Assembly: GCA_028287135.1 (NCBI GenBank)
Contig: JAQBQE010000039.1
Location: 62,001-126,000, forward strand
DNA length: 64,000 bases
Direction of reading: 5' to 3'
Source: Myxococcales bacterium
GTDB taxonomy: Bacteria; Myxococcota_A; Polyangia; Haliangiales; Haliangiaceae
The translations under genes and the position numbers were made by a program. A model generated the notes under the pieces. That model was not told the DNA's origin. It searched no databases and worked only from the letters and a program-made list of their open reading frames with translations. Below, one piece after another: positions 3,303 to 63,904 of this stretch. Position 1 is the stretch's first letter. Every line of letters starts with the position of its first letter.

Positions 3303-3339
3303 CGGTCAGCGGGGCGGCACGACGAGACGCTCGACGAGC

Positions 3340-3530: not shown

Positions 3531-3638
3531 GATGTTCCTGGAACCTTTCGGGCCCTTGCGTGCCGGCAAGACACTGGACCTCGGCACGGTCCGTGTGGAA
3601 TCTGGAGCTTCTGCACCAAGGTGATACGCTCGCGGTGA

Positions 3639-9250: not shown

Positions 9251-10170
9251 GGCTGGGCTCCGGGGGTGAGGGACGCGGTCTTGGTGGTGGTGGTCGTCGT
9301 CGCTTCGGCGATCCGCACGCGTCCGTTGGACGCCACGCGGATCTCGTCGGGGCGAAGCTTGGTGTCGTCGATGTCGGCCTCGACGATCGTGAAGTTCACG
9401 GGAGGCTCGAGCTCGTCGGAGATGTAGTTGACCGTCGCCCAGATCGGACCGTCGGCGCCGTCGACGGTGAGCTCGACGCGCTGGCCCTTGGCGACCTTCG
9501 CGCGGTGGTCACGGGGAACCGCGAACCGGATCAGCAGGTCACGGTCGTCGAACACGCGAGCGATCGGCATGCCCTTGCTCGCCATGCCGCCGTCGCGGAC
9601 CTTGATCATCGTGACCACGCCGTCGACCGGCGCCTTGAGCTCGGTCTTGGTCAGCATCACCTCGAGCTGCTGGCGCGAGTTCCTCGCCTGGGCGTAGCGG
9701 CCGGCAGCAGCGCCGGTCGACGCTCCCGCGGCTGACGCATCGGCCGACGCAGAGCGCACGGCGTTCATCGGCGATGCTCCGGCGCGGGCGAGCAGACGTT
9801 CGCTACGGAGCTTCTGCGTCAAGGCGCGCGCCTGGATCGCGGCCGCTCCGACCTCACCGGCGAGGGCACGCTCCGCGAACTTCGCGCCCTCGAGATCCGA
9901 GCGGAGCTGGCGATCGTCGAGCTTTGCGATCGTGTCGCCGGCACGGACGCGCTGGCCGAGGGTGACGGCGAGGCGCTCGACCGGAGCATCGACCTCGGCG
10001 GTGATCACCTTGGTGACGCGCGAGGTGACGACGCCGACAAACTCGGGTGCCTCGGGTGCGATCTCGGCAGCGGCGGGCACGCGAGCCTCGGTGGGATCAG
10101 GCTCGGCCGGCGTGGTTGCTGCGCCCTTGCACGCCACGAGCAACAGGACGGTCGGCAGGAATCTGGTCAT
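9247..10170 (-). CDS. Periplasmic adaptor (HlyD/RND-type membrane fusion) lipoprotein
   Basis: The 307-residue product begins with a lipoprotein signal (lipobox LVAC, Cys14) and an Ala/Pro/Glu-rich linker. The adaptor fold follows: a first lipoyl half-motif (VDAPVERLAVTLGQRVRAGDTIAKL), an Ala-rich coiled-coil hairpin (about 85-170), the second lipoyl half (ELKAPVDGVVTMIKVRDGGM) and a beta-barrel. Such proteins bridge an inner-membrane transporter and a TolC channel. It overlaps the C39 ABC exporter gene upstream by 74 bp and the activator gene downstream by 4 bp, so all three are one operon. It is a second adaptor in the locus beside the GAF-fused one at 12.6-14.6 kb; whether both work with the same exporter is unknown. 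Confidence 0.88.
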
Positions 10171-12382
10171 ACGGCATCTCCATGGTGGGCGTGTTCTGCG
10201 AGGCCTGGATCAGCTTGGTGTAGAGCCCGCCCTTGTGGACGAGCTGGTCGTGGGTTCCCTGTTCGACGATGCGACCCTTGTCCATCACGACGATCAGGTC
10301 CGCATTGCGGACGGTCGACAGCCGGTGTGCGACCGTGATCCGCGTGCAGCGCTGCTTCTCGAGGTTGGCGATCACGCGCTTCTCGGTCGAGTTGTCGAGC
10401 GCCGAGGTCGCCTCGTCGAGGAGCATCAGCGCGGGGTTGCGAATCACCGCGCGAGCAATCGCGACGCGCTGGCGCTGACCACCCGAGAGCGAGCCGCCAC
10501 CATCCGAGACCACCGTGTCGTAGGTCATCGGCATCTCGGTGACGTCGTCGTGAAAGCACGCGACCTTGCACGCCGACGAGATCCGATCGAGCGTGGCACC
10601 GGGCGCGGTGAGCGCGACGTTCTCGCGGATCGTGCCGCCGAAGATGAAGGGATGCTGCGGGACGATGCCGATCTGCTGGCGGACCGCGCGGAGGTCCATG
10701 TCCTTCAGGCTGCGTTCGTCGTAGGCGATCTCACCGCTCACCGGCTGGTAGAGGCCGGAGAGCAGATTGAGCAGCGTCGACTTGCCCGAGCCCGACGGGC
10801 CGACGAGCGCGACCGACATCCCGGGGACGATGTCGAGCGAGACGTCCTGGACGACCAGCGGAGCCTGCTCGCCGTACTTGAACGACACGTTCTTGACCGA
10901 GACCGCGCCGCGCAGGCGAGGTGGCTGCATCGCGACATCGCGGTCCTGCTCGAGCTTGGTCTGCAGCACGTCATCGATGCGGTCCATGTGACCCTTGACG
11001 AGCTGTAGCTCGAGCGCGCTCGACACCAGCTGCGACAGCGGACCGAACAGGCTCGACGCGAGCGAGTTCATGGCGAGCATCATGCCCAGCGACATCTTGC
11101 CGGTCATCACCGAGCTCGCACCGATGGTCAGGATCAGCAGCGGTCCGAGCGAGGCGATCGCACCGCGCACACCGTCGACCCACGCCGACGCACGGGCGCG
11201 GCGCATCTTGACGTTGAGCTCGTCGGTGTAGAGGTTTGACCACTTCTCGACGCCCATGCGCTCGGCGCCGGCGCACTTCAGGGTCTCCATCCCGCCGAGC
11301 ATCTGCACCATGTAGCTGTGCGCCTTCGCCTGCTTGTCGAGGTCGGCAGCGAGCAGGCGCTGGAACGTCGGGCGGGCGCACAGGAACACGAGCGCCTCGG
11401 AGGCCGACATCGCGATCGTGATCAGGCCGAGCGTCGGGCTGACGTAGAAGATGATCGCGGCGTAGAGCAGCACGAACACGCCGTCGATGAACGCCGACAT
11501 GCTCTTGCTGGTCACCACCTCGCGCACCGTGCCGTTCGAGTCGACGCGCATCATCAGGTCGCCCGTCGAGCGGCGCTGGAAGAACGAGTACGGCAGCGAG
11601 ACCATGTGGTCGAGGAAGCCGAGCGTCATCTTCGTGTCGAGCGAGATCCGCAGGTGCAGCAGCAGGTGCGTGCGCACGATCTCCGCGATCAGGTTGAACA
11701 CGACCATGCCGCCGATCGCGCCGAGGCAGACGTACAGCAGGTGGTAGTCGGAGCGCGGAACGACCTTGTCGATGATCATCCCGGTGACCAGCGGCAGCGC
11801 GAGTGCGATCAGACGCAGCGCCAGCGACATCACGATCACGCGGGTGAACAGGCCCTTCTCCGACATCAGCTCGTTCCAGTAGCGAACGAGCCGGCCCTTC
11901 TCGGCCTTCGTCTTGGTGAACCGGTCGGTCGGTGTCAGCTCGATCGCGACGCCGGTGAAGCACTTGCTGAACTGGTCGAGCGGGACATCGCGCGGGCCGG
12001 TCGCCGGGTCGACGATACGGACGCCGCCCTTGACCAGCTTCTCGAACACGACGAAGTGGTTGAACTCCCAGTGCAGGATCGTCGCGGTCTTCAGCAGCTT
12101 GATCTGCGTGATGTCGACCTTGATGCCGCGGCCCTGCATGCCGTAGCGCTCGGCGGTGTCGAGGATCGCCTTCGCGGAGACCCCGTCGCGGCCGATGCCC
12201 ATCGCCTCGCGAACGTCCGCGAGCTTGGACTCGCGCCCGTGGAACGCCATCACCATGCACAGCGATGCGGCGCCGCAGTCCGTCCACTCGAGCTGCTGGA
12301 CGAACGGCACACTCCGCTTGCCGGCGAACCCGAGCTTCTTCAGCGCGGGGAAGGACGCGACGATGTTGGAGGTCTTGGTCAT
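10097..12382 (-). CDS. ABC exporter with N-terminal C39 peptidase (double-glycine leader processing)
   Basis: The 761-residue product combines protease, membrane and ATPase domains. The C39 peptidase (about 25-150) has Cys36 (WTDCGAASLCMV), His109 (LHWEFNHFVVFE) and Asp125 (VDPATG). Six helices are predicted between about 180 and 450. The ATPase has Walker A GPSGSGKST (528-536), LSGGQ (632-636) and Walker B LMLLDEATSALD (652-663). Such proteins cut leaders after GG and export the core peptide, and four small genes with GG leaders lie within 12 kb. The ATG at 12382 fits the conserved FVQQLEWTDCG spacing; the longer open frame runs through a regulatory region. It shares a 56-bp upstream element with the lipoprotein gene at 16541. 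No modification enzyme is encoded nearby. Confidence 0.95.
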   Translation of the reverse strand: MTKTSNIVASFPALKKLGFAGKRSVPFVQQLEWTDCGAASLCMVMAFHGRESKLADVREAMGIGRDGVSAKAILDTAERYGMQGRGIKVDITQIKLLKTATILHWEFNHFVVFEKLVKGGVRIVDPATGPRDVPLDQFSKCFTGVAIELTPTDRFTKTKAEKGRLVRYWNELMSEKGLFTRVIVMSLALRLIALALPLVTGMIIDKVVPRSDYHLLYVCLGAIGGMVVFNLIAEIVRTHLLLHLRISLDTKMTLGFLDHMVSLPYSFFQRRSTGDLMMRVDSNGTVREVVTSKSMSAFIDGVFVLLYAAIIFYVSPTLGLITIAMSASEALVFLCARPTFQRLLAADLDKQAKAHSYMVQMLGGMETLKCAGAERMGVEKWSNLYTDELNVKMRRARASAWVDGVRGAIASLGPLLILTIGASSVMTGKMSLGMMLAMNSLASSLFGPLSQLVSSALELQLVKGHMDRIDDVLQTKLEQDRDVAMQPPRLRGAVSVKNVSFKYGEQAPLVVQDVSLDIVPGMSVALVGPSGSGKSTLLNLLSGLYQPVSGEIAYDERSLKDMDLRAVRQQIGIVPQHPFIFGGTIRENVALTAPGATLDRISSACKVACFHDDVTEMPMTYDTVVSDGGGSLSGGQRQRVAIARAVIRNPALMLLDEATSALDNSTEKRVIANLEKQRCTRITVAHRLSTVRNADLIVVMDKGRIVEQGTHDQLVHKGGLYTKLIQASQNTPTMEMPYDQIPADRPVARGVQGRSNHAGRA

Positions 12383-12394
12383 GCGGGCTGCCTT

Positions 12395-12450
12395 GTCCTT
12401 GTTCAACCCGCGTGCCGTCGCCTCGGCGCTGTGGATACCGATGGTTGCAG
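12395..12450 (-). promoter_or_regulatory. 56-bp conserved upstream module, copy 1 (before the C39 exporter)
   Basis: Read on the minus strand, a block at 12450-12430 (CTGCAACCATCGGTATCC, then ACA) is followed after 11 bp by ACGGCACGC, two bases, and GTTGAACAAGGAC ending at 12395. The same blocks with identical spacing precede the gene at 16541; 44 of 56 positions match. The AAGGAC end can serve as ribosome-binding region. CGGCACG-N4-TTGAA looks like a sigma-54 -24/-12 element except that the -12 GC is GA. Confidence 0.6.
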
Positions 12451-19580: not shown

Positions 19581-19913
19581 ATGTCGACCCCCAAGCAGCA
19601 GGACTCCCAGGACCCGTTCATGTCGATCGATGCCAAGCAGCTCGAGAACGTCGCCGGCGGCGCTGCGCGCGTCACGGCCCGCTCGAGCGGCAACAGCGAC
19701 GAGCTGATGGCGATGATGACGTCGATCGGTGACTCGATCAAATCCCTCGCGTCGGCCAACTCGAGCAGCGGCTCGGATCCGATGCAGATGATGATGATGA
19801 TGATGATGATGGGTGGCATGGGTGGCGGCGGCGGCGGTGCCCCGGCGGCGGCAGCGCCTCCCCCGACCCCGGTGGTCAACGTGTCGACGTGCGTCAAGCG
19901 CGGCGGCTGCTGA
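19581..19913 (+). CDS. Polymethionine double-glycine peptide 1
   Basis: This small protein (110 residues) has a leader ending SIDAKQLENVAGG (residues 15-27), the form cut by C39 peptidases after GG. The 83-residue core has a likely amphipathic helix (MTSIGDSIKSLASA), then DPMQ followed by eight Met (70-77) and GG, a Gly/Ala/Pro-rich linker, and a tail VVNVSTCVKRGGC with Cys104 and Cys110. The Met run is an ATG-triplet tract, so slippage could change its length in frame. AAGGACACGC precedes the ATG at 19581; ATG 19620 is a less likely start. The peptide is followed 35 bp later by peptide 2. I know of no described family with this make-up. Export by the C39 transporter is inferred. Confidence 0.85.
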   Translation: MSTPKQQDSQDPFMSIDAKQLENVAGGAARVTARSSGNSDELMAMMTSIGDSIKSLASANSSSGSDPMQMMMMMMMMGGMGGGGGGAPAAAAPPPTPVVNVSTCVKRGGC

Positions 19914-19948
19914 TCCCCACCAGGTTCACGTCGAGAAGGAGATCAACC

Positions 19949-20191
19949 ATGGCGAGCAACGACAACGACCGTGACGCACTCGAGTCGATCGATCTGGCGT
20001 CGCTCCAGGCCGTGACGGGTGGACGGATCAGCCGCTCGAGTGCACCTGACCCTGCCGTGCTGCAAGGCATCAAGCAGCTCGCCGAGATCATCTCGGCGGT
20101 CGGCCAGAACCTCGCGCAGACCAAGGCCGCTGGCAGTCAGCAGATGATGCAGATGATGCAGCAGATGATGCAGGCTCGCGGCGGCCGCTAG
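19949..20191 (+). CDS. Polymethionine double-glycine peptide 2
   Basis: This peptide has 80 residues. The leader ends SIDLASLQAVTGG (residues 13-25), aligned position by position with peptide 1. The 55-residue core has a helical segment (LQGIKQLAEIISAVGQNLAQ) and a Met/Gln cluster MMQMMQQMM (66-74), ending QARGGR. It lacks Cys and the Pro-rich tail of the others. The ATG at 19949 is preceded by GAAGGAG at good distance, stronger than the other peptide genes. Only 35 bp separate it from peptide 1, so both are probably on one transcript that ends at the hairpin at 20320. Confidence 0.85.
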   Translation: MASNDNDRDALESIDLASLQAVTGGRISRSSAPDPAVLQGIKQLAEIISAVGQNLAQTKAAGSQQMMQMMQQMMQARGGR

Positions 20192-20216
20192 ACAGCGCGC
20201 CGTCTCGGCGCCGAAA

Positions 20217-20310
20217 AAATGGGGTCTGACCCCATTTATCGAGCTCGCGTCCGCGGTTGACGCCTGTGGCGCTCGTTCAAACGCGAAGAGAAAATGGGGT
20301 CTGACCCCAT
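20217..20310. repeat. Second pair of REP-like palindromes
   Basis: TGGGGTCTGACCCCA palindromes lie at 20217-20237 and 20292-20310, centres about 74 bp apart. They are the reverse complement form of the pair at 12.5 kb. The first copy sits 25 bp after the stop of peptide 2 and has A-rich and T-rich flanks, so it may act as a terminator too. Confidence 0.7.
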
Positions 20311-20505
20311 CTATCCTAGAGGGCCCGAGGATCTTCTCGGGCCCTTCGCCGTTTCGGCGCACACGGGTCGCGAGAGTGGAGACCGTCCCCCGGGATACCT
20401 GAGAGCTCGCGGTGTTGGCCGACGAGAGTTGAGAGAGTGGAAAGCGTCCCTGCGTTCGATTGGATGCAGATCGCCGAACGCGGTTGACGCCTGTGGCGCT
20501 CGTTC
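20252..20505 (+). repeat. 27-bp direct repeat (20252-20278 and 20479-20505)
   Basis: The two copies are identical and begin CGCGGTTGACGCCTGTGGCG. The first lies between the REP-like palindromes; the second lies 37 bp before the candidate promoter of peptide gene 3. Each contains a small CGCC-TGT-GGCG hairpin. Together with the palindromes they suggest that this 400-bp spacer arose by duplication. No gene is seen in the spacer. Confidence 0.75.
20320..20345 (+). terminator. Terminator-like hairpin after peptides 1-2
   Basis: AGGGCCCGAG, loop GATCTT, CTCGGGCCCT form a perfect 10-bp stem, followed by TTCGCCGTTTC. It lies 129 bp past the stop of peptide 2. Confidence 0.6.
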
Positions 20506-20541
20506 GATCGCGAAGTGCGCGATTGCGTTGAGCGGAGAGCT

Positions 20542-20557
20542 GGGCACGCGCGGTGCA
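20542..20557 (+). promoter_or_regulatory. Candidate sigma-54 promoter of peptide gene 3
   Basis: GGGCACG-CGCG-GTGC-A fits the consensus except for the first base and the GTGC, which peptide gene 1 also has. Spacing is exact and the predicted start lies about 24 bp before the ATG at 20592. AAAGGACACGC precedes the start codon as in peptide gene 1. Confidence 0.5.
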
Positions 20558-20591
20558 CAAGCCTGGGTCACACCACGAAAGGACACGCACC

Positions 20592-20858
20592 ATGAAGACC
20601 ATCACCACCGATACCCTCGTCACTGTCACCGGCGGCGTCGCTGGCAACAACAGCGCGGTCACCCAGCAGCTCACGGCCCTTCAGGGTTCGATCAAGGATC
20701 TTGCGACGAGCCAGGCCAAGCCGGCCGGCGGCCTCAGCGATCCGTCGACGATGATGATGATGATGATGGCGATGCGGCCCCAGCAGCAGACCGTCGTCGC
20801 CGCGCCCGCCGCGGCGAGCCCGGTCATCAACATCTCGAATCGCGTCCGTCGCTGGTAA
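20592..20858 (+). CDS. Polymethionine double-glycine peptide 3
   Basis: This peptide has 88 residues with a short leader ending TITTDTLVTVTGG (residues 3-15). The 73-residue core has a helix (VTQQLTALQGSIKDLATSQ), a Met run 54-59 plus Met61 following SDPST, a Pro/Ala linker and the tail SPVINISNRVRRW. The tail matches that of peptide 1 (PVVNVS) but without Cys. The ATG at 20592 follows AAAGGACACGCACC. It has its own candidate promoter and terminator, so it is a separate unit 400 bp from peptides 1-2. Confidence 0.85.
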   Translation: MKTITTDTLVTVTGGVAGNNSAVTQQLTALQGSIKDLATSQAKPAGGLSDPSTMMMMMMAMRPQQQTVVAAPAAASPVINISNRVRRW

Positions 20859-23822: not shown

Positions 23823-24443
23823 ATGTCCGCGCGCCGCTACCTGGTCAAGGAGATGTTCGGGCCCACGCTGCAAGGCGAGGGCGCCCACGCCGGGCGTGCG
23901 GTCGTGTTCCTGCGCTTCGCCGCGTGCAACCTCGCGTGCACCGGCTGCGATACCGACTTCGATCCCGAGGGAGCGGTGCGCTACTCCGCCGACGAGATCG
24001 TCGCGCGACTGCGCGAGCTCGACACCGGATCCGCGCGTCGCGTGATCGTCACCGGCGGTGAGCCGACGTTGCAGTGGGACGAACCCCTGTCGGCCGCGAT
24101 CCGCGGTGCAGGGTTCATCGTGCACATGGAATCCAATGGCACGCGGGTCCCGGCCGGCACCGTCGACTGGCTGACCGTGTCACCGAAGCCGCAGCACCAC
24201 CCGGCCAGCGTGATGCTCGCCGACGACGTGCGCCCGAGCGAGCTCAAGGTCGTGGTCGATGACACCGTCGACGAGGCCGTGCTCGAGCGCTACGAAGCTC
24301 GCTATCCATGCGAGCACTACTTCCTCCAGCCGTGGATGGATGATCGCTATCCGCAGACGCTCGCGAAGACGATGGCATTGGTGCACGCGCGACCACGTTG
24401 GCGAATGTCCGTCCAGCTGCACAAGATCCTCGGCGTGCCCTAA
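23823..24443 (+). CDS. queE: 7-carboxy-7-deazaguanine synthase
   Basis: QueE is a radical SAM enzyme that converts 6-carboxytetrahydropterin to 7-carboxy-7-deazaguanine in queuosine synthesis. The 206-residue product begins VKEMFGPTLQGEGAHAG, a typical QueE N-terminus, followed by the cluster motif CNLACTGCDTDF (three Cys, C-x3-C-x2-C), the GGEPTLQ motif that contacts SAM, and SPKPQ. The ATG at 23823 fits the family. Its stop overlaps the stop of the convergent peptide 4 gene by 4 bp. No queC or queD lies nearby. Confidence 0.93.
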   Translation: MSARRYLVKEMFGPTLQGEGAHAGRAVVFLRFAACNLACTGCDTDFDPEGAVRYSADEIVARLRELDTGSARRVIVTGGEPTLQWDEPLSAAIRGAGFIVHMESNGTRVPAGTVDWLTVSPKPQHHPASVMLADDVRPSELKVVVDDTVDEAVLERYEARYPCEHYFLQPWMDDRYPQTLAKTMALVHARPRWRMSVQLHKILGVP

Positions 24444-24724
24444 CCAGCGCAGTTGCACGTCACCTGGGTGACCTGCGGCGCCGGTGGGGGCTCGGGTGGT
24501 GGTGCGGCGGCCGGCGCTGCGCCTCCACCGCCACCCATCATCATCATCATCATCATCATCTGCATCGGGTCCCCCGACGCGCCACCCGAGGCCTCCTGTT
24601 TGAGCGAGGTCAACGAGCTCTTGATCTGGTTCATCGCCAGCGTCAGCGACTTGTCGCTGCTCGACGCGCCTCCGTGGACGGTCGCGAGCATGGTCAGGTC
24701 GACGGACGGGAGGTCATCGGTCAT
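24440..24724 (-). CDS. Polymethionine double-glycine peptide 4
   Basis: This 94-residue peptide has a leader ending SVDLTMLATVHGG (residues 7-19). The 75-residue core has a helix (LTLAMNQIKSSLTSLKQEAS), then DPMQ, eight Met (56-63) and five Gly, nearly identical to peptide 1, a Pro-rich linker and a tail PQVTQVTCNCAG with Cys90 and Cys92. The ATG at 24724 has AGGGGG directly before it. The gene lies 4-5 kb from the other three and on the opposite strand, 102 bp downstream of and on the same strand as the YcnI/haem lipoprotein operon. It may be read from that operon or from its own -24/-12 element. Confidence 0.85.
   Translation of the reverse strand: MTDDLPSVDLTMLATVHGGASSSDKSLTLAMNQIKSSLTSLKQEASGGASGDPMQMMMMMMMMGGGGGAAPAAAPPPEPPPAPQVTQVTCNCAG

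Positions 24725-32439: not shown

Positions 32440-32456
<17 letters not shown>
30456..32456 (+). CDS. Membrane-bound hybrid histidine kinase with GAF and receiver domains
   Basis: The 666-residue product from GTG 30456 begins with three to four membrane segments like the KdpD/DUF4118 region (FAAIVTVVCLACGLAL, IFVLVIGIVTHYAG, VVALLGSAVLGHL, VATVFLLIAGAGVIWV). A GAF domain follows (about 125-285). The kinase core has the H-box LGHELRNPLAPI, the N-box VVANLVTNAAKYT, DTGIGIPADM and GGLGLGLTIV. A receiver ends the protein (VLVVDDNPDALSML, acceptor in ALLDIGLPVMDGYE, Lys in LVKPISI). Its stop codon region overlaps by 17 bp the 3' end of the convergent Ser/Thr kinase gene. No response regulator gene adjoins it. 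Confidence 0.9.
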
Positions 32457-33615
<1,159 letters not shown>

Positions 33616-34172: not shown

Positions 34173-35300
34173 TTACCAGCGCACGACGAGGCGCTGACCC
34201 GGCTCGATCTGCACCATCCGCTCCTCGGTGCGGACGCCCGAGTCGTCCTTGAGGATCATCTTGAGCTTCCTGCCGTCCGCGGGCGCCGCGACTCCGACGG
34301 CGGCCGCCGTGATCCCGAGGTCGATCATCACGCCGGGCGCCTTGGGATTCTCGAGCGCGATCCGACCGAGGGGGCGCTCGAGCTGGTTCTCGACGATCGC
34401 CCAGTGGAACGTCATCTTGGCGGGCTTGCCGGGCTCGACGGTCGCGTACTCGAACAGCGCCATCTCGAGCTTGGGGTTGAAGCAGAGCCCCTTGTAGCTG
34501 CCGGGCGCGACGACGATGCCCTTCTCCGGCAGCTTGCCGGTGATCCGCTGGCGATTCACCCACAGCTCGGTGCACGGCAGGCTCGACGACACGAGCAGCG
34601 TCCCGAGCACGTCCTGGTCCTTGGCGAGCTCGGCGCGCACGACGTCGGCGTTCGCACCGAACGGACGCTGCACGAGGTAGCGGCGATAGAACTCGCGCTT
34701 GGGCTCAGGCGCGCCGAGCTTGTCGTAGGTCGAGCCGAGCTCGCGAAGAAAGCCCGGTAGCTCGGGCGCGAGGGCGTACCCGATGTGGAAGTAGACGAGC
34801 GCGTCGCCGTACTGCTTCTTCGCGAACGCGGCGCGACCGAGCGTGAACGACTTCTTCGCCTCGGCGGTCATCGGGACCAGCGAGAGCTTGTCGGCGAACG
34901 GATCGTCGACAGCGGCGAGGCGCGCCGCCTCCACGCGTGCTGCCTCGCGATCTTTCTCGACCGTCGTGGCAGCCGCGTAGCTGGCCCATGCATCCGCCGC
35001 GCGCTCGTTCTGACCCGCGAGCGTCCACAGCATGGCGAGCTGCTTGGCCTCGGGACTACCCGGACCGCGCGCGATGACGAGCGCCTGGTAGAGCGGGATC
35101 GCCTTGGCCCAGGCGCGTGCCTTCGCCGCCTTCTTCGCGGGCACGACGAGGAGCTCGGACAGGTTCGCTCGTGATGCCTTCGTCGCGACGGTGTGGACCA
35201 GCTCCTCGGCGCGTGCCGGCCGCCCGATCAGCAGCGCGAGCGCGACGAACAGCGCCGCACCTCCAAAGGCCCTCACCACGCCGATCGTAGCACGCGTCAT
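34173..35300 (-). CDS. Exported TPR-containing protein with C-terminal beta domain
   Basis: The 375-residue product has a signal peptide (GGAALFVALALLIGRPARA). A helical TPR-like region follows (AKARAWAKAIPLYQALVIAR, QNERAADAWASYAAATTVEK, FTLGRAAFAKKQYGDALVYF, LPGFLRELGSTYDKLGAP). From about residue 235 a beta-rich domain (LVSSSLPCTELWVNRQRITG, VVAPGSYKGLCFNPKLEMAL) resembles PEGA-type modules. It could scaffold an envelope complex. GTG 35279 is an alternative start. No partner can be named. Confidence 0.75.
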   Translation of the reverse strand: MTRATIGVVRAFGGAALFVALALLIGRPARAEELVHTVATKASRANLSELLVVPAKKAAKARAWAKAIPLYQALVIARGPGSPEAKQLAMLWTLAGQNERAADAWASYAAATTVEKDREAARVEAARLAAVDDPFADKLSLVPMTAEAKKSFTLGRAAFAKKQYGDALVYFHIGYALAPELPGFLRELGSTYDKLGAPEPKREFYRRYLVQRPFGANADVVRAELAKDQDVLGTLLVSSSLPCTELWVNRQRITGKLPEKGIVVAPGSYKGLCFNPKLEMALFEYATVEPGKPAKMTFHWAIVENQLERPLGRIALENPKAPGVMIDLGITAAAVGVAAPADGRKLKMILKDDSGVRTEERMVQIEPGQRLVVRW

Positions 35301-35442: not shown

Positions 35443-36369
35443 ATGCACGCCGTCATTCTCGAGCGCAACAAGCTGGTGGCACGCAAGGTGGCCCGCCTGT
35501 TCACGTCGACCGGTGCGACGGCGCTGGCGGTCGAAGATCCGGCGCTCGTCACGTCGTGCATCGGCAACGCGGATGTCCTGTGCGCCGACACGTTCGACGC
35601 CGACCTCGTGGTCGAGCAGCTCCGTGCGAAGCCGGGTCTGCGTGGCGTGCTGTGGACGGCGGAGCCGCTGCGCCGTTCGCTCAAGTACCTCGTCGAATCG
35701 AACGCGATCGATCACGTGCTCGGTCGCAAGGACTTCGAGTCCACGCCCCGTGCGTGGGAGGTCGTGATGGTCGCGCGGCGACTCGCGGCCAATCCGGGCA
35801 TCTCGCCTCCGCTCGCCGCGTACCTCGACTGGGGGTTCACGTCGGTCGAGCTCGACGTTCGCTCGACGTCGGATCGGGATGTCGCCGTTTCGAAGATCGC
35901 CGAGTTTGTGGGCTCGCTCTCGGTACCCAAGCGGATCGCGGAGATGTTCTCCGAGCTCGGTCACGAGCTGCTGATGAACGCGCTGTACGACGCACCGATC
36001 GATCAGCACGGCCGCCCCAAGTACGCGGGCGATCGCAAGGCCGACGTCACGCTCGAGGATTCGGAGCGGCCCACCGTGAAGCTCGGCACCGACGGTACGC
36101 GCCTCGTGCTGCAAGTTCGCGATCCGTTCGGCCGCCTCGAGCGCAAGCACGTGTTCGATGGGCTGGCGCGTGGGCTGTCCGGCGGAGAGATGGATCAGAG
36201 CCGCGGAGGGGCAGGGCTCGGGATGATGGTGTGTCACAACGCGTCGTCGGCGATGCTGTTCGACGTCGCGCGCGGGCGGCACACCGAGGTCACCGCGATG
36301 TTCGAGCTCGACATGAACCTGCGAGAGTTCCGCACGCAGGCGAAGTCGCTGCACTTCTGGAGTCACTAG
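35443..36369 (+). CDS. Receiver-like domain fused to anti-sigma-type (RsbW-like) ATPase, copy 1
   Basis: The 308-residue product has an N-terminal response-receiver-like fold (MHAVILERNKLVARKVARLF, then LRGVLWTAEPLRRSLKYLV) without a clear phospho-acceptor Asp pattern. The C-terminal part is a GHKL ATPase with N-box ELGHELLMNALYDAP, DPFGRLERKHVFDG in place of the DxGxG box, and a Gly-rich GGAGLGMMVCHNASSAM. This matches anti-sigma kinases of the RsbW type. It is paralogous to the gene at 62918. The next gene, a STAS protein, starts directly after its stop, so the two probably form a switch pair. The ATG at 35443 is preceded by GGGGAA. Confidence 0.75.
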   Translation: MHAVILERNKLVARKVARLFTSTGATALAVEDPALVTSCIGNADVLCADTFDADLVVEQLRAKPGLRGVLWTAEPLRRSLKYLVESNAIDHVLGRKDFESTPRAWEVVMVARRLAANPGISPPLAAYLDWGFTSVELDVRSTSDRDVAVSKIAEFVGSLSVPKRIAEMFSELGHELLMNALYDAPIDQHGRPKYAGDRKADVTLEDSERPTVKLGTDGTRLVLQVRDPFGRLERKHVFDGLARGLSGGEMDQSRGGAGLGMMVCHNASSAMLFDVARGRHTEVTAMFELDMNLREFRTQAKSLHFWSH

Positions 36370-38649
36370 ATGGACGCGCCCACTGGATCCCAGGCTCCCC
36401 GAGCGAGCCAGCCCGCGATTCCCGCGGATCCGCCGCAGAAGCTGATGGTTGAGAAGTTCGCCGACGGGGCGATCGCGTGCCTCAAGTTCACGGGCACGAT
36501 CGACGAGAGCTTCGAAGGCAAGAAGCTCGGCAGCACCGCCGCCGGTGACACGCTCGTGCTCGATCTCGGCGGCGTGAAGAAGATCTCGTCGTTCGGGATC
36601 CGCGAGTGGGTCGACTTCGTGACGGCGGCGAAGACGCAGGTGCGGTCGATGATCTTGATCGAGTGCACGCCGAAGGTCGTCGATCAGCTCAACATGGTCG
36701 CCAACTTCTCCGGCGGCGGCCGCGTGTTCAGCTTCTACGCGCCGTTTCGCTGCGACTACTGCGACTCCGAGCATCGCGTGCTCCTGCAGGTCGACAAGGA
36801 CCACGAGTCCATCAAGTCGATGAAGCTCGCCGAGCGGCCGTGCCCGAGCTGCAAGGAGGCGATGTACTTCGACGAGGACGGCGCGACGTACTTCTCGTAC
36901 CTGATCAGCCAGGAGAAGTTCGAGCTCGAGCCCGAGGTCGCGGGCTTTCTCGCGACCAAGCTCAACTACGCGGTCAGCGATCTCAATCGCAAGCTTCGCG
37001 TCGACAAGGTGATCGAGGGCCGCACGACGTACCTCAAGCTCGCCGGCGATCTCGACCGCACGTTCCCGCGTGACAAGCTCGCGGAGGGTCTCGAGGGTAC
37101 GGTGATCGTCGACCTGTCCTCGATCGGACGGATCGAGCCCGCGGGTGCCGCCGAGTGGCGTGGGTTCGTGAAGATGGCGTCGCCGCTGGTCGAGCAGCTC
37201 TATCTCGCATCCGTGCCGCCCGCGTTCCTCGAAAAGCTCGGTAGCGCGGAGGATCTCGGACCCCGCGCGCAGGTGTTGACGTTGACGCTGCCGTACATGT
37301 GCTCGAGCTGCGGCACGACGAGCGGGCAGCTGATCGAGGTCGCGCAGCATCACGAGGTCCTCAAGTTCGCGACCGCGCCGGAGCTGCGCTGTCCGACGTG
37401 CAAGCACGCGATGCAGTGCGTCGCCGCCGAGCCGCTGATGACGCTGCTGCCCGAGCTGCCAAGGCCGACCGCCTCGGCGGACGTCGCGAAGTCGATCGGG
37501 ATGCTGCGCGAGCGCGCGCTCCAGGCACAGCGCGATCGCAAGCCGAGCTCGAAGAGCAACGTGATGAGCGCGGTGATGCCGGCAGCCGCGCCGCCGCGAT
37601 CCTCCCTGCTCGTCCCGGTGCTCGCCGGGTCGCTCGCCGTCGTCGTCCTGGCGGGCGGCTTCCTCGCGTACCAGCGGATGACGAAGAGCGATGCGCCGAA
37701 GACCGGCCTCGGTGCGGTGAGCTCGCGCAGCGCGGACGCCCGCCCCGCGTGGATCACGAGTGACCTCCAGGGCACCGCCAGCTGCACCGACATCCCCGAC
37801 AAGGGTCTGTCGTGTGTCGGGGTGTCGTCGGTGTCGGCGCGCCAGGACGATGCGAACGACGAAGCCGCCGACGCAGCGTTCGACGCGGTGGCCAATGCGC
37901 TCGCGGTGCGGATCGGCAGCGATCCATGGAAGCTGTCGGTGCTGCCGATCTACAAGTCCGCGCGCGACGCGAAGCTCGCCGCGTTCGATCGCGATCCCAG
38001 CAACACGAGCGCGCGGCGCGATGTGCGTGAAGGCCGCCATGCGGTGGGCCGCGTGCTGCGCGCGACGAGCGGTGGTGCGATCCCGGCAGCGCCGACGGGT
38101 CGCTACTGGGAGGAGTACAGCGGTGCCGAGGGCAAGCGGTACCTCGCGTTCGCGCAGGTCTCGCTCGGCGCCACCGAGATCGCGAACCTGATCGAGGGGT
38201 ACACCAGGCCGGCGACCGCGCTCGGTGCGACGACGGTCAGCCTGTTCCCGCTCGTCGGCTGGCGGTACCCAAGGCTCGAGACCGGCGCGATCCTGACCAG
38301 GCTCGGCTCGGGGCCGCTGCAGGACCTCGGGCTCGCCGAGCAGTACATCGTGGTCTCGGTCGCAGGCCGCGACGTGACGGATGCCGCATCGTTCGCAAAG
38401 CTCGTCACCGACGAGCACACGGAGCTCGTCGAGCGCGGCGGTGCGTTCCGGCTCAAGGTCCAGGCGAGTGACGGTGCATCACGGGAGTTCTCGGCGGTGA
38501 TCAAGCCGAAGCAGGTCGAGACCCCGACGCCGAACGACGGCAAGGCACCCAAGCCCGGTACGGGTACGCAGACCGGGAGCGGTGGCGTCAACGTCTGGGA
38601 TCGCTACGGTGGCGGCAAGGGCACCGGACGCGACGACCCGACGCAGTGA
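36370..38649 (+). CDS. Membrane protein with two STAS/zinc-ribbon modules and an extracytoplasmic PDZ-like part
   Basis: The 759-residue product has an unusual architecture. Residues about 30-125 form a STAS (anti-sigma-antagonist) domain (IACLKFTGTIDESFEGKKLG, VLDLGGVKKISSFGIREWVD), followed by a four-Cys zinc ribbon (CDYCDSEH and CPSCKEAM). A second STAS (VIEGRTTYLKLAGDLDRTFP, VIVDLSSIGRIEPAGAAEW) and ribbon (CSSCGTTS and CPTCKHAM) repeat this. A membrane helix (LLVPVLAGSLAVVVLAGGFL) lies near residues 410-430. Outside, an LPP20-like domain (ARPAWI, DEAADAAFDAVANALAVRIG) and a PDZ-like segment (LQDLGLAEQYIVVSVAGRDV) follow. It begins at the base after the RsbW-like gene's stop. It probably relays an envelope signal to that ATPase; that is inference. 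Confidence 0.8.
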   Translation: MDAPTGSQAPRASQPAIPADPPQKLMVEKFADGAIACLKFTGTIDESFEGKKLGSTAAGDTLVLDLGGVKKISSFGIREWVDFVTAAKTQVRSMILIECTPKVVDQLNMVANFSGGGRVFSFYAPFRCDYCDSEHRVLLQVDKDHESIKSMKLAERPCPSCKEAMYFDEDGATYFSYLISQEKFELEPEVAGFLATKLNYAVSDLNRKLRVDKVIEGRTTYLKLAGDLDRTFPRDKLAEGLEGTVIVDLSSIGRIEPAGAAEWRGFVKMASPLVEQLYLASVPPAFLEKLGSAEDLGPRAQVLTLTLPYMCSSCGTTSGQLIEVAQHHEVLKFATAPELRCPTCKHAMQCVAAEPLMTLLPELPRPTASADVAKSIGMLRERALQAQRDRKPSSKSNVMSAVMPAAAPPRSSLLVPVLAGSLAVVVLAGGFLAYQRMTKSDAPKTGLGAVSSRSADARPAWITSDLQGTASCTDIPDKGLSCVGVSSVSARQDDANDEAADAAFDAVANALAVRIGSDPWKLSVLPIYKSARDAKLAAFDRDPSNTSARRDVREGRHAVGRVLRATSGGAIPAAPTGRYWEEYSGAEGKRYLAFAQVSLGATEIANLIEGYTRPATALGATTVSLFPLVGWRYPRLETGAILTRLGSGPLQDLGLAEQYIVVSVAGRDVTDAASFAKLVTDEHTELVERGGAFRLKVQASDGASREFSAVIKPKQVETPTPNDGKAPKPGTGTQTGSGGVNVWDRYGGGKGTGRDDPTQ

Positions 38650-38684: not shown

Positions 38685-40265
38685 ATGGGACGGAACCTCG
38701 TACTGTGCCTCGCGGTGATCCTCTGTGGATGTGGGCCTGCCAACCGCAACCCCGGCGGCGATGACGTTCCTCCGGGAAAGGACGAGGACGGCGACGGCTT
38801 CACCGACACCGAGGGGGACTGTAACGATGGTGACGCGTCGATCAATCCCGCCGCCGCCGAGGTCTGTGGCGACACCGTCGACAACAACTGCAACGGGATG
38901 TCCGATGCCCAGGACTACGCGTGCTTCACGCCGTGTCAGAAGGCGGCGTTCGATCGGTCGTCGGTCGGCTGCGTCTACTACGCGGTCGATACCAACTCGC
39001 TGGGCGGACCGTTCGCCGTCGCGGTCTCGAACATCGATCCGGCCGCGACCGCCAACGTCACGATCGAGGTGAAGAACGGGGCGACGTGGACCCCGGTGAC
39101 CCCGACGTTCCCCGTCATGCCGCGGTCACTGCGCACCGAGAACCTGACCCGCCGGTTCGCCGACGGCTCGAGCCTGTTCGCGGGTGGTGCGTACCGGATC
39201 ACCTCCGACCTCCCGGTGATCAGCTACCAGTTCGCGCCGATCGATGGCTCGACGAGCTTCCTCTCGGATGCATCGCTGCTGCTACCGACCTCCGCGTACG
39301 ATCGCTACTACATCGTGTCGGCGTGGCCGTACGGCATCGATTCGGGTGGCGCGGCACGGCCGGCGCACATCCAGATCGCCGCCGCCGAGACCACCACGGT
39401 CACCGTGACCTCGCCGATCGCGACGCTCGCGGGCGCCGGTGCAGCAGCTCTGGCTCCCAACGTCCCGGGGACCTACGTCCTCCAGGAGGGCGACTTCTTG
39501 CAGCTCACCGTGGCGACGGTCGACCAGAGCTTCACGGGTACGTACATCGAGTCCGACAAGCCGGTCGCGGTGTTCAGCAGCAACGACTGCGCGAACGTCC
39601 CCAACACCGCTGCCGATTGCTGCTGTGACCACCTCGAGGAGCAGCTGTTCGGCCTCCAGACATGGGGCAAGAGCTACGTCGCTGCGCAAATGCCGCGTCG
39701 CCAGACCGAGGGATCGATCTGGCAGATCCTCGCGCAGGAGGACAACACGAACGTCACGTTCACGGCTGGCGCCGGGATCACCGGGCTGCCGCCGAGTGTC
39801 GTGCTCAACGCTCGCCAGAAGGTGGAGTACGAGGTCCGCGGCGGCACGACCCCGGGCGACTTCCTCGTGACCTCCGACAAGCCCGTGCTGGTCAACCAGT
39901 ACACGGTGGGCTCGTTCCATGTGTCGCAGAACTCGGACCTCGGCGACCCCGACATGGTGCAGGCCGTACCGACGGAGCAGTTCCTCTCGCACTACAACAT
40001 CCTCGTGCCCTCGACCTGGATCAACGACTTCCTGGTGCTGACGCGGAAGGCCGGCTCGACGATCATGGTCGACGGCATCGAGCCCGCAGCGACCTGGGTC
40101 CCGATCGCCGGTGGCTGGGAGACCGCCGTGATTCCGATGCTCGACGGTGTCCACACCCTCGATGGCGCCGCCCCGTTCGGCGTGGCGGTGTCGGGCTACG
40201 ACTCCTACGACTCCTACTCGTATCCCGGCGGCCTGAACCAGACCGTGATCAATCCGATCTTCTGA
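38685..40265 (+). CDS. IgGFc-binding-like lipoprotein with MopE-type motif
   Basis: The 526-residue lipoprotein (lipobox LCGC) carries a MopE-type putative metal-binding segment (DEDGDGFTDTEGDCNDGD, ASINPAAAEVCG, DNNCNGMSD). The main body resembles the IgGFc-binding N-terminal domain: TENLTRRFADGSSLFAGGAY, DRYYIVSAWPYGIDSGGAAR, GDFLQLTVATVDQSFTGTYI, KPVAVFSSNDCANVP, DHLEEQLFGLQTWGKSYVAA. Such proteins are common and expanded in myxobacteria and probably work in surface adhesion. A lipoprotein gene follows 26 bp later. Confidence 0.85.
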   Translation: MGRNLVLCLAVILCGCGPANRNPGGDDVPPGKDEDGDGFTDTEGDCNDGDASINPAAAEVCGDTVDNNCNGMSDAQDYACFTPCQKAAFDRSSVGCVYYAVDTNSLGGPFAVAVSNIDPAATANVTIEVKNGATWTPVTPTFPVMPRSLRTENLTRRFADGSSLFAGGAYRITSDLPVISYQFAPIDGSTSFLSDASLLLPTSAYDRYYIVSAWPYGIDSGGAARPAHIQIAAAETTTVTVTSPIATLAGAGAAALAPNVPGTYVLQEGDFLQLTVATVDQSFTGTYIESDKPVAVFSSNDCANVPNTAADCCCDHLEEQLFGLQTWGKSYVAAQMPRRQTEGSIWQILAQEDNTNVTFTAGAGITGLPPSVVLNARQKVEYEVRGGTTPGDFLVTSDKPVLVNQYTVGSFHVSQNSDLGDPDMVQAVPTEQFLSHYNILVPSTWINDFLVLTRKAGSTIMVDGIEPAATWVPIAGGWETAVIPMLDGVHTLDGAAPFGVAVSGYDSYDSYSYPGGLNQTVINPIF

Positions 40266-55203: not shown

Positions 55204-56464
55204 ATTCTGCGCAGACGGACTACGGGCGGCCATGCTCGACCACACCTTGCGCGCGGAGACATCGAGCCGGGTCGTAGTACGATGGTGAGGTGAGGCCCGT
55301 GCAGCTCGCCGTCACGCTCGCCGTGATCTCCTTGGCGAGCTCCGTGGCGGCGGCTCCCTCGAAGGAGGTCACGCGCGAGTTCCAGGCCGGCGTCGACGCG
55401 TTCCGCCTCGGCAAGCTCGCGGAGGCTCGCACGTACCTCGAGCGCGCGAGCCGGCTCGACCCGAAGCTGCCGGGCCCGCATCGCTTCCTCGCGGCCGTCG
55501 CGCAGGCGGAGAGTCGGTTCCCCGACTGCATCCGATCGGCGCGCACCGCGATCGAGCTCAACCCGCGCTCGCAGGAGATCGCCGACACGATCAAGCTGCA
55601 CGACGACTGTCGCCGCGCTGCGGGTCGACCGGCCTATCCGCAGGAGCTCGGCGACAAGGCCGCGATCGCGGTGACCACGAATGTCCCGGCCGCGACCGTC
55701 ACGATCAGCGGCCTCGCGTACGGCGCCACACCGCTCGAGCCCCGGCCGATCACCGTGGGCTCGCACGACCTCGCGTTGACGAAGAGCGGCTTCCTGCCCG
55801 CGCAGGTCACGGTCAACGCGCTCGCCGGCGTGGTGACGGATGTCGAGGTCGAGCTGATCGCGGATCCCGCGGCGGCTGCCCCCGACGTGAGCACGGACCA
55901 GGTCGTTGCGCGCGCGACCGGCCAGCTCGTCGTCGCGGTCCGCCCGCCGACGTCCACCCGCATCGTGATCGACGGCACGGAAGCACCGTCGGGCGACGTC
56001 CACACCGGGCCCGAGATGACGGCGCGCGGCTTCCGGCTCGCCCCGGGTGTGCACGTCGTCGAGGTCGAGGCGCCGGGCAAGGACCTCTGGCGCCGTCGCG
56101 TCCAGCTCGCCGTCGAGGAGCGCTGGGTGCGGGCGACGCTGGTGGACACCGCGACGCGCGAGCGCACGCGGACGCGGGGCTTGGTGGGCGTCGGCGTCGG
56201 CACCGCTCTGGTCGGCGTCGGCATCGTCAGCGCTCTACGCTCGAGCTGGATCGTATCCGGCGCCACGTTCGGGGCCGGTGCCGTCGCGCTCGGACTTGGT
56301 ACGTGGTGGCTGGTTCATGGTCGCCGTCCCGATCCCACAGCCGCACCGCCATTTGCCGTCGTCCCGGTAACCGGCGGCGCCGTGGCCGCCCGCGCGTGGT
56401 CGTGGTGAGCGCGCGTTTTCGACGCAGTCGGTCGTGACGAGCGCCTTCTAGACATTCTGCGCAG
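55204..56464 (+). repeat. ATTCTGCGCAG upstream of two neighbouring genes (55204-55214, 56454-56464)
   Basis: The same 11-bp sequence with palindromic core CTGCGCAG lies 76 bp before the gene at 55290 and 24 bp before the gene at 56488. Flanks also agree (15 of 17 positions). It may be a regulatory site shared by the two transcription units; chance is not excluded. Confidence 0.35.
55290..56408 (+). CDS. Exported TPR/PEGA protein with C-terminal membrane segments
   Basis: The 372-residue product from GTG 55290 has a signal peptide (LAVISLASSVAAA), TPR-like helices (FQAGVDAFRLGKLAEARTYL, FPDCIRSARTAIELNPRSQE), and two PEGA-type domains (IAVTTNVPAATVTISGLAYG, ITVGSHDLALTKSGFLPAQV; QLVVAVRPPTSTRIVIDGTE, FRLAPGVHVVEVEAPGKDLW). 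Two hydrophobic segments near the C-terminus (GLVGVGVGTALVGVGIVSAL and GAGAVALGLGTWWLV) complete it. It opens a run of plus-strand envelope genes. PEGA domains are thought to bind cell-surface polymers. Confidence 0.8.
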   Translation: MRPVQLAVTLAVISLASSVAAAPSKEVTREFQAGVDAFRLGKLAEARTYLERASRLDPKLPGPHRFLAAVAQAESRFPDCIRSARTAIELNPRSQEIADTIKLHDDCRRAAGRPAYPQELGDKAAIAVTTNVPAATVTISGLAYGATPLEPRPITVGSHDLALTKSGFLPAQVTVNALAGVVTDVEVELIADPAAAAPDVSTDQVVARATGQLVVAVRPPTSTRIVIDGTEAPSGDVHTGPEMTARGFRLAPGVHVVEVEAPGKDLWRRRVQLAVEERWVRATLVDTATRERTRTRGLVGVGVGTALVGVGIVSALRSSWIVSGATFGAGAVALGLGTWWLVHGRRPDPTAAPPFAVVPVTGGAVAARAWSW

Positions 56465-56487
56465 GCGCTGGCTATCATCCGCGCTGG

Positions 56488-57432
56488 ATGGGGTCGCACG
56501 TCGTGCGTCGTGGAGCAGTGGTCGTGCTCGCGCTGGCTTCGGTCAGTGGCTGCGTCGATGGCTTTCGCGGCTCGAACGTCCAGCTCGATCTCGCACCGAG
56601 CACGCCCGCACAGGCATCCCCCGGCGCGGTGCCGCGCCCGAACCAGTTGCCCTCGAACGCGCACTACACGCTCTATGCGATCCAGACCGCCGAGGATCGC
56701 GATCGGTTGTTCGAGATCGATCGGTTCGAGATCCACCCGATCGTCGATCTGCAGTCGCCATGCTTCATCGATGTCGGCGACCACGTCCCGCATCCGGGTC
56801 TCCACGTCAGCCAGTTCGCGGCGCAGATCGCGATCGACACCGGGATCCCCGACTACCGCAATCCTCCGGACACCGCGACCGAGGAGCAGAAGATCGACGC
56901 AGCCACCGCCGCGCAGCGGATGGCAAACGTGACCGCGCTCGGTGGTGATAGCGGGATCAAGGTCGTGACCTCGTACTCGGACAGCCAGTACGCGGCGGTC
57001 GCCGCCGACTGCACCGGCGATGGCATCCCACCTGCGATGTGCAGCGGCGAGGATGCGAACGCTCGCCGGTTCGCCGCGTGTCAGGCCGCGTGGGCCGCGG
57101 ATCCCGAGCTATGGGAGGGCACCGATCGCGTGCTGACCGCGCCGCTCGCAGGGACCACGCGCGGGATGGTCGACGGCATGAACCCGGTCAACCTCGCACC
57201 GGTCGGCGGTGCGCAGTTCTTCGTCGACGAGGATCTGACCGGGATGGATGCGTTCGCGCTGTACTGGCAGCTCGACGGGACAGAGGGACCGGGCACCCTC
57301 CTGATGTATGGACGCCCGACCATGCCGACGCGCGGTGTGATGCACGTCGAGCTCACGAGCACGTCGTCTCCCGGTCTGTCCGCTGACCTCGCGATCTTCG
57401 CCGACCTCGGCGGGGACGAGGTCCACTTCTGA
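56488..57432 (+). CDS. Hypothetical lipoprotein
   Basis: The 314-residue lipoprotein (signal RRGAVVVLALASVSGC) has a large mature domain with segments LPSNAHYTLYAIQTAEDRDR, FEIDRFEIHPIVDLQSPCFI, HPGLHVSQFAAQIAIDTGIP and GDEVHF at the end. Four Cys are present. No family is recognised. It is followed 8 bp later by another lipoprotein gene and then by OmpA- and TonB-receptor-type genes, so it likely is a surface component of that complex. Confidence 0.72.
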   Translation: MGSHVVRRGAVVVLALASVSGCVDGFRGSNVQLDLAPSTPAQASPGAVPRPNQLPSNAHYTLYAIQTAEDRDRLFEIDRFEIHPIVDLQSPCFIDVGDHVPHPGLHVSQFAAQIAIDTGIPDYRNPPDTATEEQKIDAATAAQRMANVTALGGDSGIKVVTSYSDSQYAAVAADCTGDGIPPAMCSGEDANARRFAACQAAWAADPELWEGTDRVLTAPLAGTTRGMVDGMNPVNLAPVGGAQFFVDEDLTGMDAFALYWQLDGTEGPGTLLMYGRPTMPTRGVMHVELTSTSSPGLSADLAIFADLGGDEVHF

Positions 57433-57440
57433 GGAGCGTC

Positions 57441-58522
57441 ATGCAACGTCGATGGATCATGATCGCTTGTGGGGTGGCAGCGCTGACCGGAGGGTCGAGC
57501 TGCACGTCGACGGAGTGTGGCGACGGCACGATCGACCGCGACGGAACGTGTGTCCCTGCCGACGAGGTCGTGGGTACCGCGGGGTGCGGCCCGTTCACCG
57601 AGCTGCAGGGCGATCAGTGCGTGCCGATGTTCCCGCCGACCGAGTGCGATCCCGCGACGACGGTGCCCGATACCGATCCGGAGACCGGCGTCACGACCTG
57701 CATCGGCACCGGCACGATCGCCGGATGTGCCGGCGCGTTCGCGTGCCCGGCCCCCGCTGCCGGCAAGCAGACGATCTGCGGTCAGCTCTACGACTTCGAG
57801 ACCAACGCGCTGGTCCAGGGCACCAACCCCGTCGGCATGCAGTGCCCGGCGACGCCGACGGCCGACGGTCCGTGCTCGCTCGGCATCCGCGCGTACGACG
57901 CGGTCGAGTTCGCGAGCGGTCCTGCCACCGCGGTGCCGCGCACCACGGGCGCGGTCTACATCGATGATTGCGGCCGCTATCGCGTGCCCGACATCGAGCC
58001 GGGCACCAGCCCGTTCATCGGCCTCGGCATCGACGACGCGGATCCGACCAAGCGTGGCCCGATGGGCGTCACCAACGCGGTCGGTGTGGCGACGGCGAAG
58101 ATGGTCGATACCCGCACGAGCAACTTCGAGGCGTTCGTCGTCAAGCCGGCGACCACGTCGAAGTGGGCGATGTCCGGCGGCCCGACGCTGGCGACCGGCA
58201 TGTACGCGATGGTGTTTCGCGCGGCGAGCACCGGCATGGCGACGCAGGCCGGCGTCACCGCCGTGAAGATGTCGGGTCCCGTGATGGCGAACGACTTCTA
58301 CTTCCAGCCCGCGCAGCAGACGCGCGAGACCATCGATGTCGCGCAGAACGCGACCGGCACCAACGGCACGGCTCTGATCACCGGCGCGTCGCTCGCCGAC
58401 GGCGGCTACAGCGGCGTCGGTGCGTTGCCGGCGACGTGCAAGTGGTCCGGACATCCGGGCGTGACGCTGCAGGGCATCGTGTTCATCCAGATCCTGCGTC
58501 CCGTGAACGCCGCCGGCATGAC

Positions 58523-58535
<13 letters not shown>
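57441..58535 (+). CDS. Cys-containing hypothetical lipoprotein
   Basis: The 364-residue lipoprotein (signal CGVAALTGGSSC) has a Cys-rich N-terminal part (TECGDGTIDRDGTCVPADEV, GCGPFTELQGDQCVPMFPPT), the pattern of a myxobacterial Cys-rich repeat, and a larger beta-rich domain (GAVYIDDCGRYRVPDIEPGT, GVTNAVGVATAKMVDTRTSN). It overlaps the OmpA-like gene by 13 bp. It is probably exported to the outer membrane with its neighbours. No function is known. Confidence 0.72.
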
Positions 58536-60465
<1,930 letters not shown>

Positions 60466-60469
<4 letters not shown>

Positions 60470-62917: not shown

Positions 62918-63904
62918 TTGTCGAAACGGCGCGTCCTCGCTATCTCGAGCGACCTCGATCAGCTCCGCCGCATCGTCGCGACGCTCGAGCGCGCTGGTGC
63001 CGAGGTCGATGCTGCTCGCAGCGTCGAGTCGATCGCGGGCGAGCTGATCCCGCACCGCTACGTCTTCTACTCGGCGACCGACGCTGATGTCGGCGCCCTG
63101 AACCAGCTGGTCCCCAAGCTCCGCGACCGCGCGCACGTCACGATCGTGACGCCCAAGGCCACGCTCTCGGATCTGACCGTCTACCTCCACGACGATCGCG
63201 TCAACCACGTCGTCGTCGGTGACGAGCTCGACCATGGCGTGTTCGTCACCGCGCAGAAGCTCCTGACCGGCGACATCTTCGGGATCGAGAAGTACCTGCC
63301 CGCCGGGACGCCCGTTCACTACGTGCGGCTGCGCGACTTCGACGGCCGCGGCCGCGCGATCGACACCGTGCTGCAGTTCGCCGAGCAGTCGAAGCTCCGC
63401 CGTCAGGTCCGCAGTGCGATCGGCCAGGTCTGCGAAGAGCTGCTGATGAATGCGCTGTACGACGCGCCGGTCGATGCCGACGGCAAGCCGGTGTTCGCGG
63501 ACGTCGATCCGCACGATCGCCGCGACATGCCGACGCCACGGCCGGTCTCGATCCGGTATGCCGCGACCGACACCCACTTCGCGGTCGCCGTCCGCGATCG
63601 GTTCGGCCGGCTCGCGAAGAACACGATCCTCTCGTACATCGAGAAGTGCATCCACTCGCCGAACCAGATCGATCGCAAGACGTACGGCGCGGGGCTCGGG
63701 CTGTATCTCGTCGCGAACGCGGCAGCGAGCTACGTCGTCAACGTCGCGCACGGCATCGCGACCGAGGTCGTGTGCACGTTCGATCGCGGCGCCAAGACAC
63801 CGCTCCGGCTGGTCGGCATGTTCGTCCATCCGGGCGGCGCCGAGGCACTGAAGCAGGGACCGACGCCGGAGACCGCGGCGGGGCAGGGGATCGAGAATGG
63901 CTGA
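62918..63904 (+). CDS. Receiver-like domain fused to anti-sigma-type ATPase, copy 2
   Basis: The product (328 residues, TTG start preceded by GGGGA) has an N-terminal receiver-like fold (RRVLAISSDLDQLRRIVATL, then HVTIVTPKATLSDLTVYLHD) and a C-terminal GHKL ATPase with EELLMNALYDAPVDADGKP, AVAVRDRFGRLAKNTILSYI and TYGAGLGLYLVANAAASYVV. It is paralogous to the gene at 35443. The next gene, a Ser/Thr kinase, starts within its last codons, which suggests that the two act in one pathway. Confidence 0.75.
   Translation: MSKRRVLAISSDLDQLRRIVATLERAGAEVDAARSVESIAGELIPHRYVFYSATDADVGALNQLVPKLRDRAHVTIVTPKATLSDLTVYLHDDRVNHVVVGDELDHGVFVTAQKLLTGDIFGIEKYLPAGTPVHYVRLRDFDGRGRAIDTVLQFAEQSKLRRQVRSAIGQVCEELLMNALYDAPVDADGKPVFADVDPHDRRDMPTPRPVSIRYAATDTHFAVAVRDRFGRLAKNTILSYIEKCIHSPNQIDRKTYGAGLGLYLVANAAASYVVNVAHGIATEVVCTFDRGAKTPLRLVGMFVHPGGAEALKQGPTPETAAGQGIENG

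Follow-up and report, generated by a model that had tools for sequence, protein, structure and literature searches.

Can a partner switch, a type of system known mainly as sigma-factor control in the cytosol, be tethered to the membrane, and what would such a switch control? This question is raised by two genes within the 64,000-nucleotide stretch of myxobacterial DNA analyzed here (hereafter the window), which is part of contig C61 of a genome assembly that is 59.5% complete. The first gene (35443..36369, + strand; ATG at 35443, TAG at 36367-36369) codes for a 308-aa protein combining a REC-like domain with a SpoIIAB/RsbW-type GHKL ATPase/kinase domain (hereafter the ATPase), while the second (36370..38649, + strand; ATG at 36370, TGA at 38647-38649) codes for a 759-aa STAS-zinc ribbon/TM/PDZ protein (hereafter the STAS-PDZ protein). 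The TAG of the ATPase gene abuts the ATG of the STAS-PDZ gene with zero gap, and the start and stop codons of both ORFs bear out exactly the interval 35443-38649 given by a first-pass annotation. That annotation had described two STAS/zinc-ribbon modules, a membrane helix, and LPP20-like and PDZ-like regions, encoded directly downstream of an RsbW-like ATPase, and had suggested a partner switch that reads the envelope directly. Profiles built from orthologues, AlphaFold (AF2) models and structure comparison (Foldseek and VIA-align lists) gave concordant domain assignments. In the STAS-PDZ protein, modeled as a whole with a pLDDT of 85, these follow the order STAS1, zinc ribbon, STAS2, zinc ribbon, one membrane helix, ectodomain and PDZ.

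We investigated the STAS identity of the N-terminal half by both sequence and structure. The window protein alone matched PF01740 only below threshold (E=0.0024); however, 21 of its 36 relatives matched it (best 2e-6), and 17 of 24 members matched TIGR00377 at E<=1 (best 2.5e-5). The module-1 profile recovered the structure of a Haliangium anti-sigma-factor antagonist (an anti-anti-sigma structure, 4hyl; E=2.9e-6), and STAS2 in the AF2 model gave Z scores of about 12 to TM1442, RsbV and 4hyl. Matches to PopD (NF048005) were weak, with a best E of 0.049. Module 1, with STAS1 and zinc ribbon 1, spans aa 24-186 (36439..36927, + strand), and module 2, with STAS2 and zinc ribbon 2, spans aa 208-349 (36991..37416, + strand). 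The duplication is real, since the module-1 profile matches not only its own residues 24-186 (6e-79) but also residues 208-349 (E=5e-29). The module-2 profile also matched eukaryotic C2H2 zinc-finger proteins, which we attribute to cysteine spacing and not to homology.

The two modules are homologous yet unequal. In the module-1 profile alignment, Ser74 falls on the serine of the DSAG (DSxG) motif of TM1442, and this position is a serine in 36/36 aligned relatives and in 79/79 first-module ORFs (72 distinct genes, the remaining seven being shortened second copies from overlapping loci). In module 2, Pro257 replaces the serine: proline occupies this position in 32 of the 36 aligned relatives and in 42 of 57 second modules (51 distinct), with a serine at the switch position in just one of the 57. 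The zinc ribbons display a CxxC...CxxC signature (Cys128/131/158/161 in ribbon 1; Cys311/314/341/344 in ribbon 2) that is seen in 36/36 and 35/36 rows, respectively, with all four cysteines present in 74 of the 79 first modules and 54 of the 57 second modules. Therefore, STAS2 no longer has the switch site, although its fold and metal site persist. Thus, of the hallmarks of a STAS anti-anti-sigma factor, the protein has the fold and a cognate GHKL kinase encoded together with it, while the phosphorylatable serine is found in module 1 and not in module 2. The STAS tandem could alternatively be a structural adaptor comparable to MlaB of the Mla transporter, with no phosphorylation switch and with the substrate of the ATPase lying elsewhere. 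The profile matches do include MlaB-type STAS proteins, and STAS2 is devoid of the serine; however, the serine is invariant in all first modules and a predicted kinase-competent ATPase adjoins, and we consider such an adaptor role very improbable.

The claim of an RsbW-like ATPase directly upstream also stands. Its AF2 model (pLDDT 92) revealed a SpoIIAB/RsbW-type GHKL domain at aa 131-290, with SpoIIAB (1th8_A) as a match at Z 12.5 (rmsd 2.0 over 129 residues). E171, H174-E175, N179, D227 and GGAG 255-258 are invariant in 29/29 ATPase sequences, so that the N-box (E-x3-N) and the glycine-rich loop are retained in all cases. The N-terminal aa 1-117 form a REC-like domain (Spo0F, Z 10) that retains E7, D49 and T72 in the core orthologues; however, it features Arg95 where a Lys is usual and E7-R8 in place of the acidic pair. 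The receiver fold is hence present, while the Lys expected of a phosphorylatable receiver is Arg95; because of this substitution and that of the acidic pair, the input of this domain is uncertain. Over its full length, the ATPase is matched best by the structure of LvrC of Leptospira (PDB 9qih), published in 2026 as a receiver-Bergerat anti-sigma factor with a canonical receiver fed by the histidine kinase LvrB (PMC13269768). In both proteins, a receiver domain precedes one of the SpoIIAB/RsbW type; in contrast to LvrC, the window version lacks the receiver Lys and its gene is paired with that of a membrane STAS protein.

The combination of one phosphorylatable and one serine-less STAS, a sensor part fused to STAS and no sigma factor nearby also recalls the stressosome (RsbR/RsbS/RsbT), in which a sensor is likewise joined to STAS and a switch kinase. 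By this analogy, the STAS-PDZ protein would correspond to RsbR, STAS2 would be a scaffold, and the ATPase would correspond to an RsbT that is released to activate a third protein. However, the structural matches favor SpoIIAB and RsbW, and the stressosome is cytosolic, has the opposite domain order and is without the zinc ribbon and PDZ; membrane anchoring and zinc ribbons are not known from stressosomes. We therefore regard this correspondence as quite unlikely.

What lies beyond the STAS modules bears on whether the switch could face the envelope. A single transmembrane helix at about aa 413-435 (37606..37674, + strand; hydropathy 2.35 at 413-431, model helix 416-438) is present in 36/36 relatives, in agreement with the first-pass annotation. 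It is followed by an ectodomain at aa 449-602 (37714..38175, + strand) with conserved PxW, VGxS and YWE motifs, most blocks of which are modeled with a pLDDT of 89-98, and for which searches by sequence against Pfam and the PDB yielded zero matches. The LPP20-like identity proposed for this region found no support at the sequence level: besides the empty PDB sequence search, Pfam scans recovered no such match in either 36 or 22 members, and a whole-genome search with PF02169 found none at E<=10. The PDZ-like region, conversely, was confirmed as a PDZ domain at aa 617-711 (38218..38502, + strand) both by profile (DegP-type PDZ, E=6e-11) and by structure (HtrA, Z 11.2, rmsd 1.8 over 78 aa), with PDZ_2 and PDZ_6 matched in many of the 36 relatives. 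While it shares the fold and a probable periplasmic location with the HtrA/DegS PDZ, the protease domain is absent and the match is limited to the PDZ part. The protein ends in a conserved N[VI]W...DDPTQ-COOH tail after a Gly-rich linker (38590..38649, + strand), and a search with this motif across all loci analyzed matched these STAS-PDZ proteins exclusively. The tail might be a PDZ ligand or a docking motif; its recognition by the PDZ domain of the same protein is unsupported, the tail being modeled with a pLDDT of about 40-50. The same tail and linker extend to the distant relatives.

The N-terminal half is likely to be cytosolic, because paralogues are fused to a kinase and the partner uses ATP; the positive-inside rule, with 4.3 versus 4.1 K/R on the two sides of the helix, favors neither orientation. 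The PDZ domain would probably then be periplasmic. Signaling might also run inside-out, with the ATPase and the kinase discussed below setting the phosphorylation of STAS1 and thereby controlling the periplasmic PDZ region as an effector rather than a sensor, for example, one involved in assembling an envelope complex or controlling its quality. Consistent with this, genes of the TPR/PEGA, FadL-like, lipoprotein and OmpA-family kinds form a downstream block next to the pair in five loci (L030, L031, L032, L036 and L038), and the PDZ is of the HtrA/DegS type without a protease. However, in known partner switches the input alters STAS phosphorylation and the output is cytosolic (PMC8256260), and nothing points to an effector activity of the ectodomain, making this direction unlikely in our assessment. 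Of the original suggestion, the membrane-tied partner-switch pair is well supported by the SpoIIAB-type fold, the catalytic N-box, the invariant STAS serine and the conserved adjacency and strand, while a direct reading of the envelope is plausible, given a PDZ beyond the membrane helix and the conservation of secreted and outer-membrane genes nearby.

Of 56 related genomes, 42 contain relatives of the STAS-PDZ protein and 41 contain relatives of the ATPase. Phylum-wide, 53 of 377 genomes contained matches, many of them to single modules, and the near-full-length matches in this survey were confined to the class. In at least 27 of 39 long relatives, the ATPase gene is no more than 1 kb away, and in each of these cases it lies upstream with the same orientation. 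More broadly, at least 47 of the 151 matches listed adjoin an ATPase, with 46 of the 47 on the same strand and 46 of the 47 with the ATPase first, compared to a chance adjacency of about 0.4% per gene. At least 11 of the 91 short (single-module) matches listed also adjoin an ATPase, and many others are not adjacent to one. As these adjacency counts refer to the matches listed and the contigs are short, all of them are lower bounds.

The neighborhood extends this pairing to a conserved quartet, comprising the STAS-PDZ, ATPase, TPR and Ser/Thr kinase genes. The latter two are divergent neighbors: a TPR protein (34173..35300, - strand; TPR_9, E=6e-4) with a signal-peptide-like N-terminus in the form of a hydrophobic stretch, and a soluble Ser/Thr protein kinase (32440..33615, - strand; Pkinase, E=2.5e-32). 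The TPR gene occupies the same position in most orthologous loci, and the kinase gene is conserved at them as well. Among loci with enough flank, the kinase is found in 11 orthologous loci and the TPR gene in 8 of those 11; four further, shorter loci extend to the kinase start, and two distant loci (L039 and L042) have the TPR gene only. The kinase ends in a conserved C-terminal FWGSLFKKKK tail (32440-32475, - strand), which is perhaps a membrane-binding end.

A second link to kinases comes from gene fusions. In two paralogues of the same genome (contig C42), two STAS-ribbon modules are combined with a Ser/Thr kinase domain (Pkinase, E ~1e-41) and, at the C-terminus, a hydrophobic helix. One of these paralogues is flanked on both sides by an ATPase of this family, and one of the two flanking ATPases bears a hydrophobic helix and PEGA. 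Pfam detected STAS-ribbon/kinase fusions in other genomes too (L062 and L069). Furthermore, in a region covered by 62918-63901 of the window and 2353-5301 of locus L077, the family's second REC-like/HATPase gene (62918-63901) precedes a gene past the end of the window whose product is a Ser/Thr kinase bearing one hydrophobic helix and a pair of PEGA domains. The kinase connection, both by conserved locus and by fusion, was absent from the first-pass annotation, as were the receiver-like domain of the ATPase and the retention of the switch serine in the first STAS only. Searches of contig C61 for Sigma70_r2 and for the SpoIIE phosphatase both returned zero matches; a sigma target could be unlinked. 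Because of the fusions, the neighborhood and these absences from the contig, we prefer a kinase output to a classical sigma output, the switch probably acting on a Ser/Thr kinase and not a sigma factor. As no phosphatase gene is linked, going by the SpoIIE search of the contig, the reset step is unaccounted for.

Taken together, these observations incline us, by a small measure, to the proposal that the two genes constitute a membrane-tethered partner switch. We envisage that the ATPase would bind STAS1 of the STAS-PDZ protein and, in one state, phosphorylate Ser74, which would break the contact between the two. STAS2, as a degenerate serine-less copy, may provide a constant docking or dimer face, and the zinc ribbons may stabilize the STAS modules. 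On the far side of the single helix, the ectodomain and PDZ would respond to the state of a periplasmic peptide or protein and so bias the ATPase between being held and being free; this outside-to-inside direction is the least certain step. Once freed, the ATPase would act on another target, most likely the divergent Ser/Thr kinase or its pathway, with a local sigma factor not being the favored target.

As in SpoIIAA/SpoIIAB and RsbV/RsbW of Bacillus, there is a STAS fold with a phospho-site serine and an adjacently encoded SpoIIAB-type kinase. In contrast to their single cytosolic STAS, the window pair features two STAS-zinc ribbon modules, a TM helix and a PDZ ectodomain, its kinase carries a REC-like domain, and no sigma factor is linked. 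The SLC26/SulP transporters similarly have STAS attached to a membrane part, but the window protein has one TM helix and no transporter. The parts are of known kinds. New, as far as could be checked, are their architecture, the duplication into a live and a dead copy, and the coupling to kinases: the literature on STAS with zinc ribbons, PDZ, kinase fusions and myxobacteria that we covered, which took in few subscription papers, has no description of this architecture. It adds a STAS-zinc ribbon family that is without a name in the libraries searched. The arrangement suggests that envelope signals may be passed by partner switching instead of a classical sensor kinase. More speculatively, and with considerable reservation, the pair might typify a transmembrane class in which STAS/SpoIIAB switching, with a live and a dead STAS, connects a PDZ sensor in the periplasm with a Hanks-type Ser/Thr kinase, replacing both the sensor kinase and the sigma factor of classical schemes. 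If true, this would explain how a number of the kinases that abound in these large genomes are controlled, with Ser74 as one defined serine open to experiment.

Several further features of these loci deserve mention. The two STAS-ribbon-Ser/Thr kinase paralogues belong to a cluster on C42 (L028, 3763-15116) that also encodes a REC-HATPase-TM-PEGA protein, one further HATPase and a second protein of the STAS-TM-PDZ type. In the window, the region directly 3' of the STAS-PDZ gene (38685-40265) codes for a protein in which a MopE-type metal-binding motif occurs together with an IgGFc-binding domain. The TPR-PEGA, lipoprotein-like and OmpA-family genes that are near downstream neighbors of this STAS gene in other, related genomes are located some 17 kb farther downstream in the window (55299-60469). 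Finally, four small proteins with double-glycine-like leader motifs, Met-rich tails and no Pfam matches are encoded at 19581-20858 and 24440-24724, and the same window codes for a C39-peptidase ABC transporter at 10097-12406.
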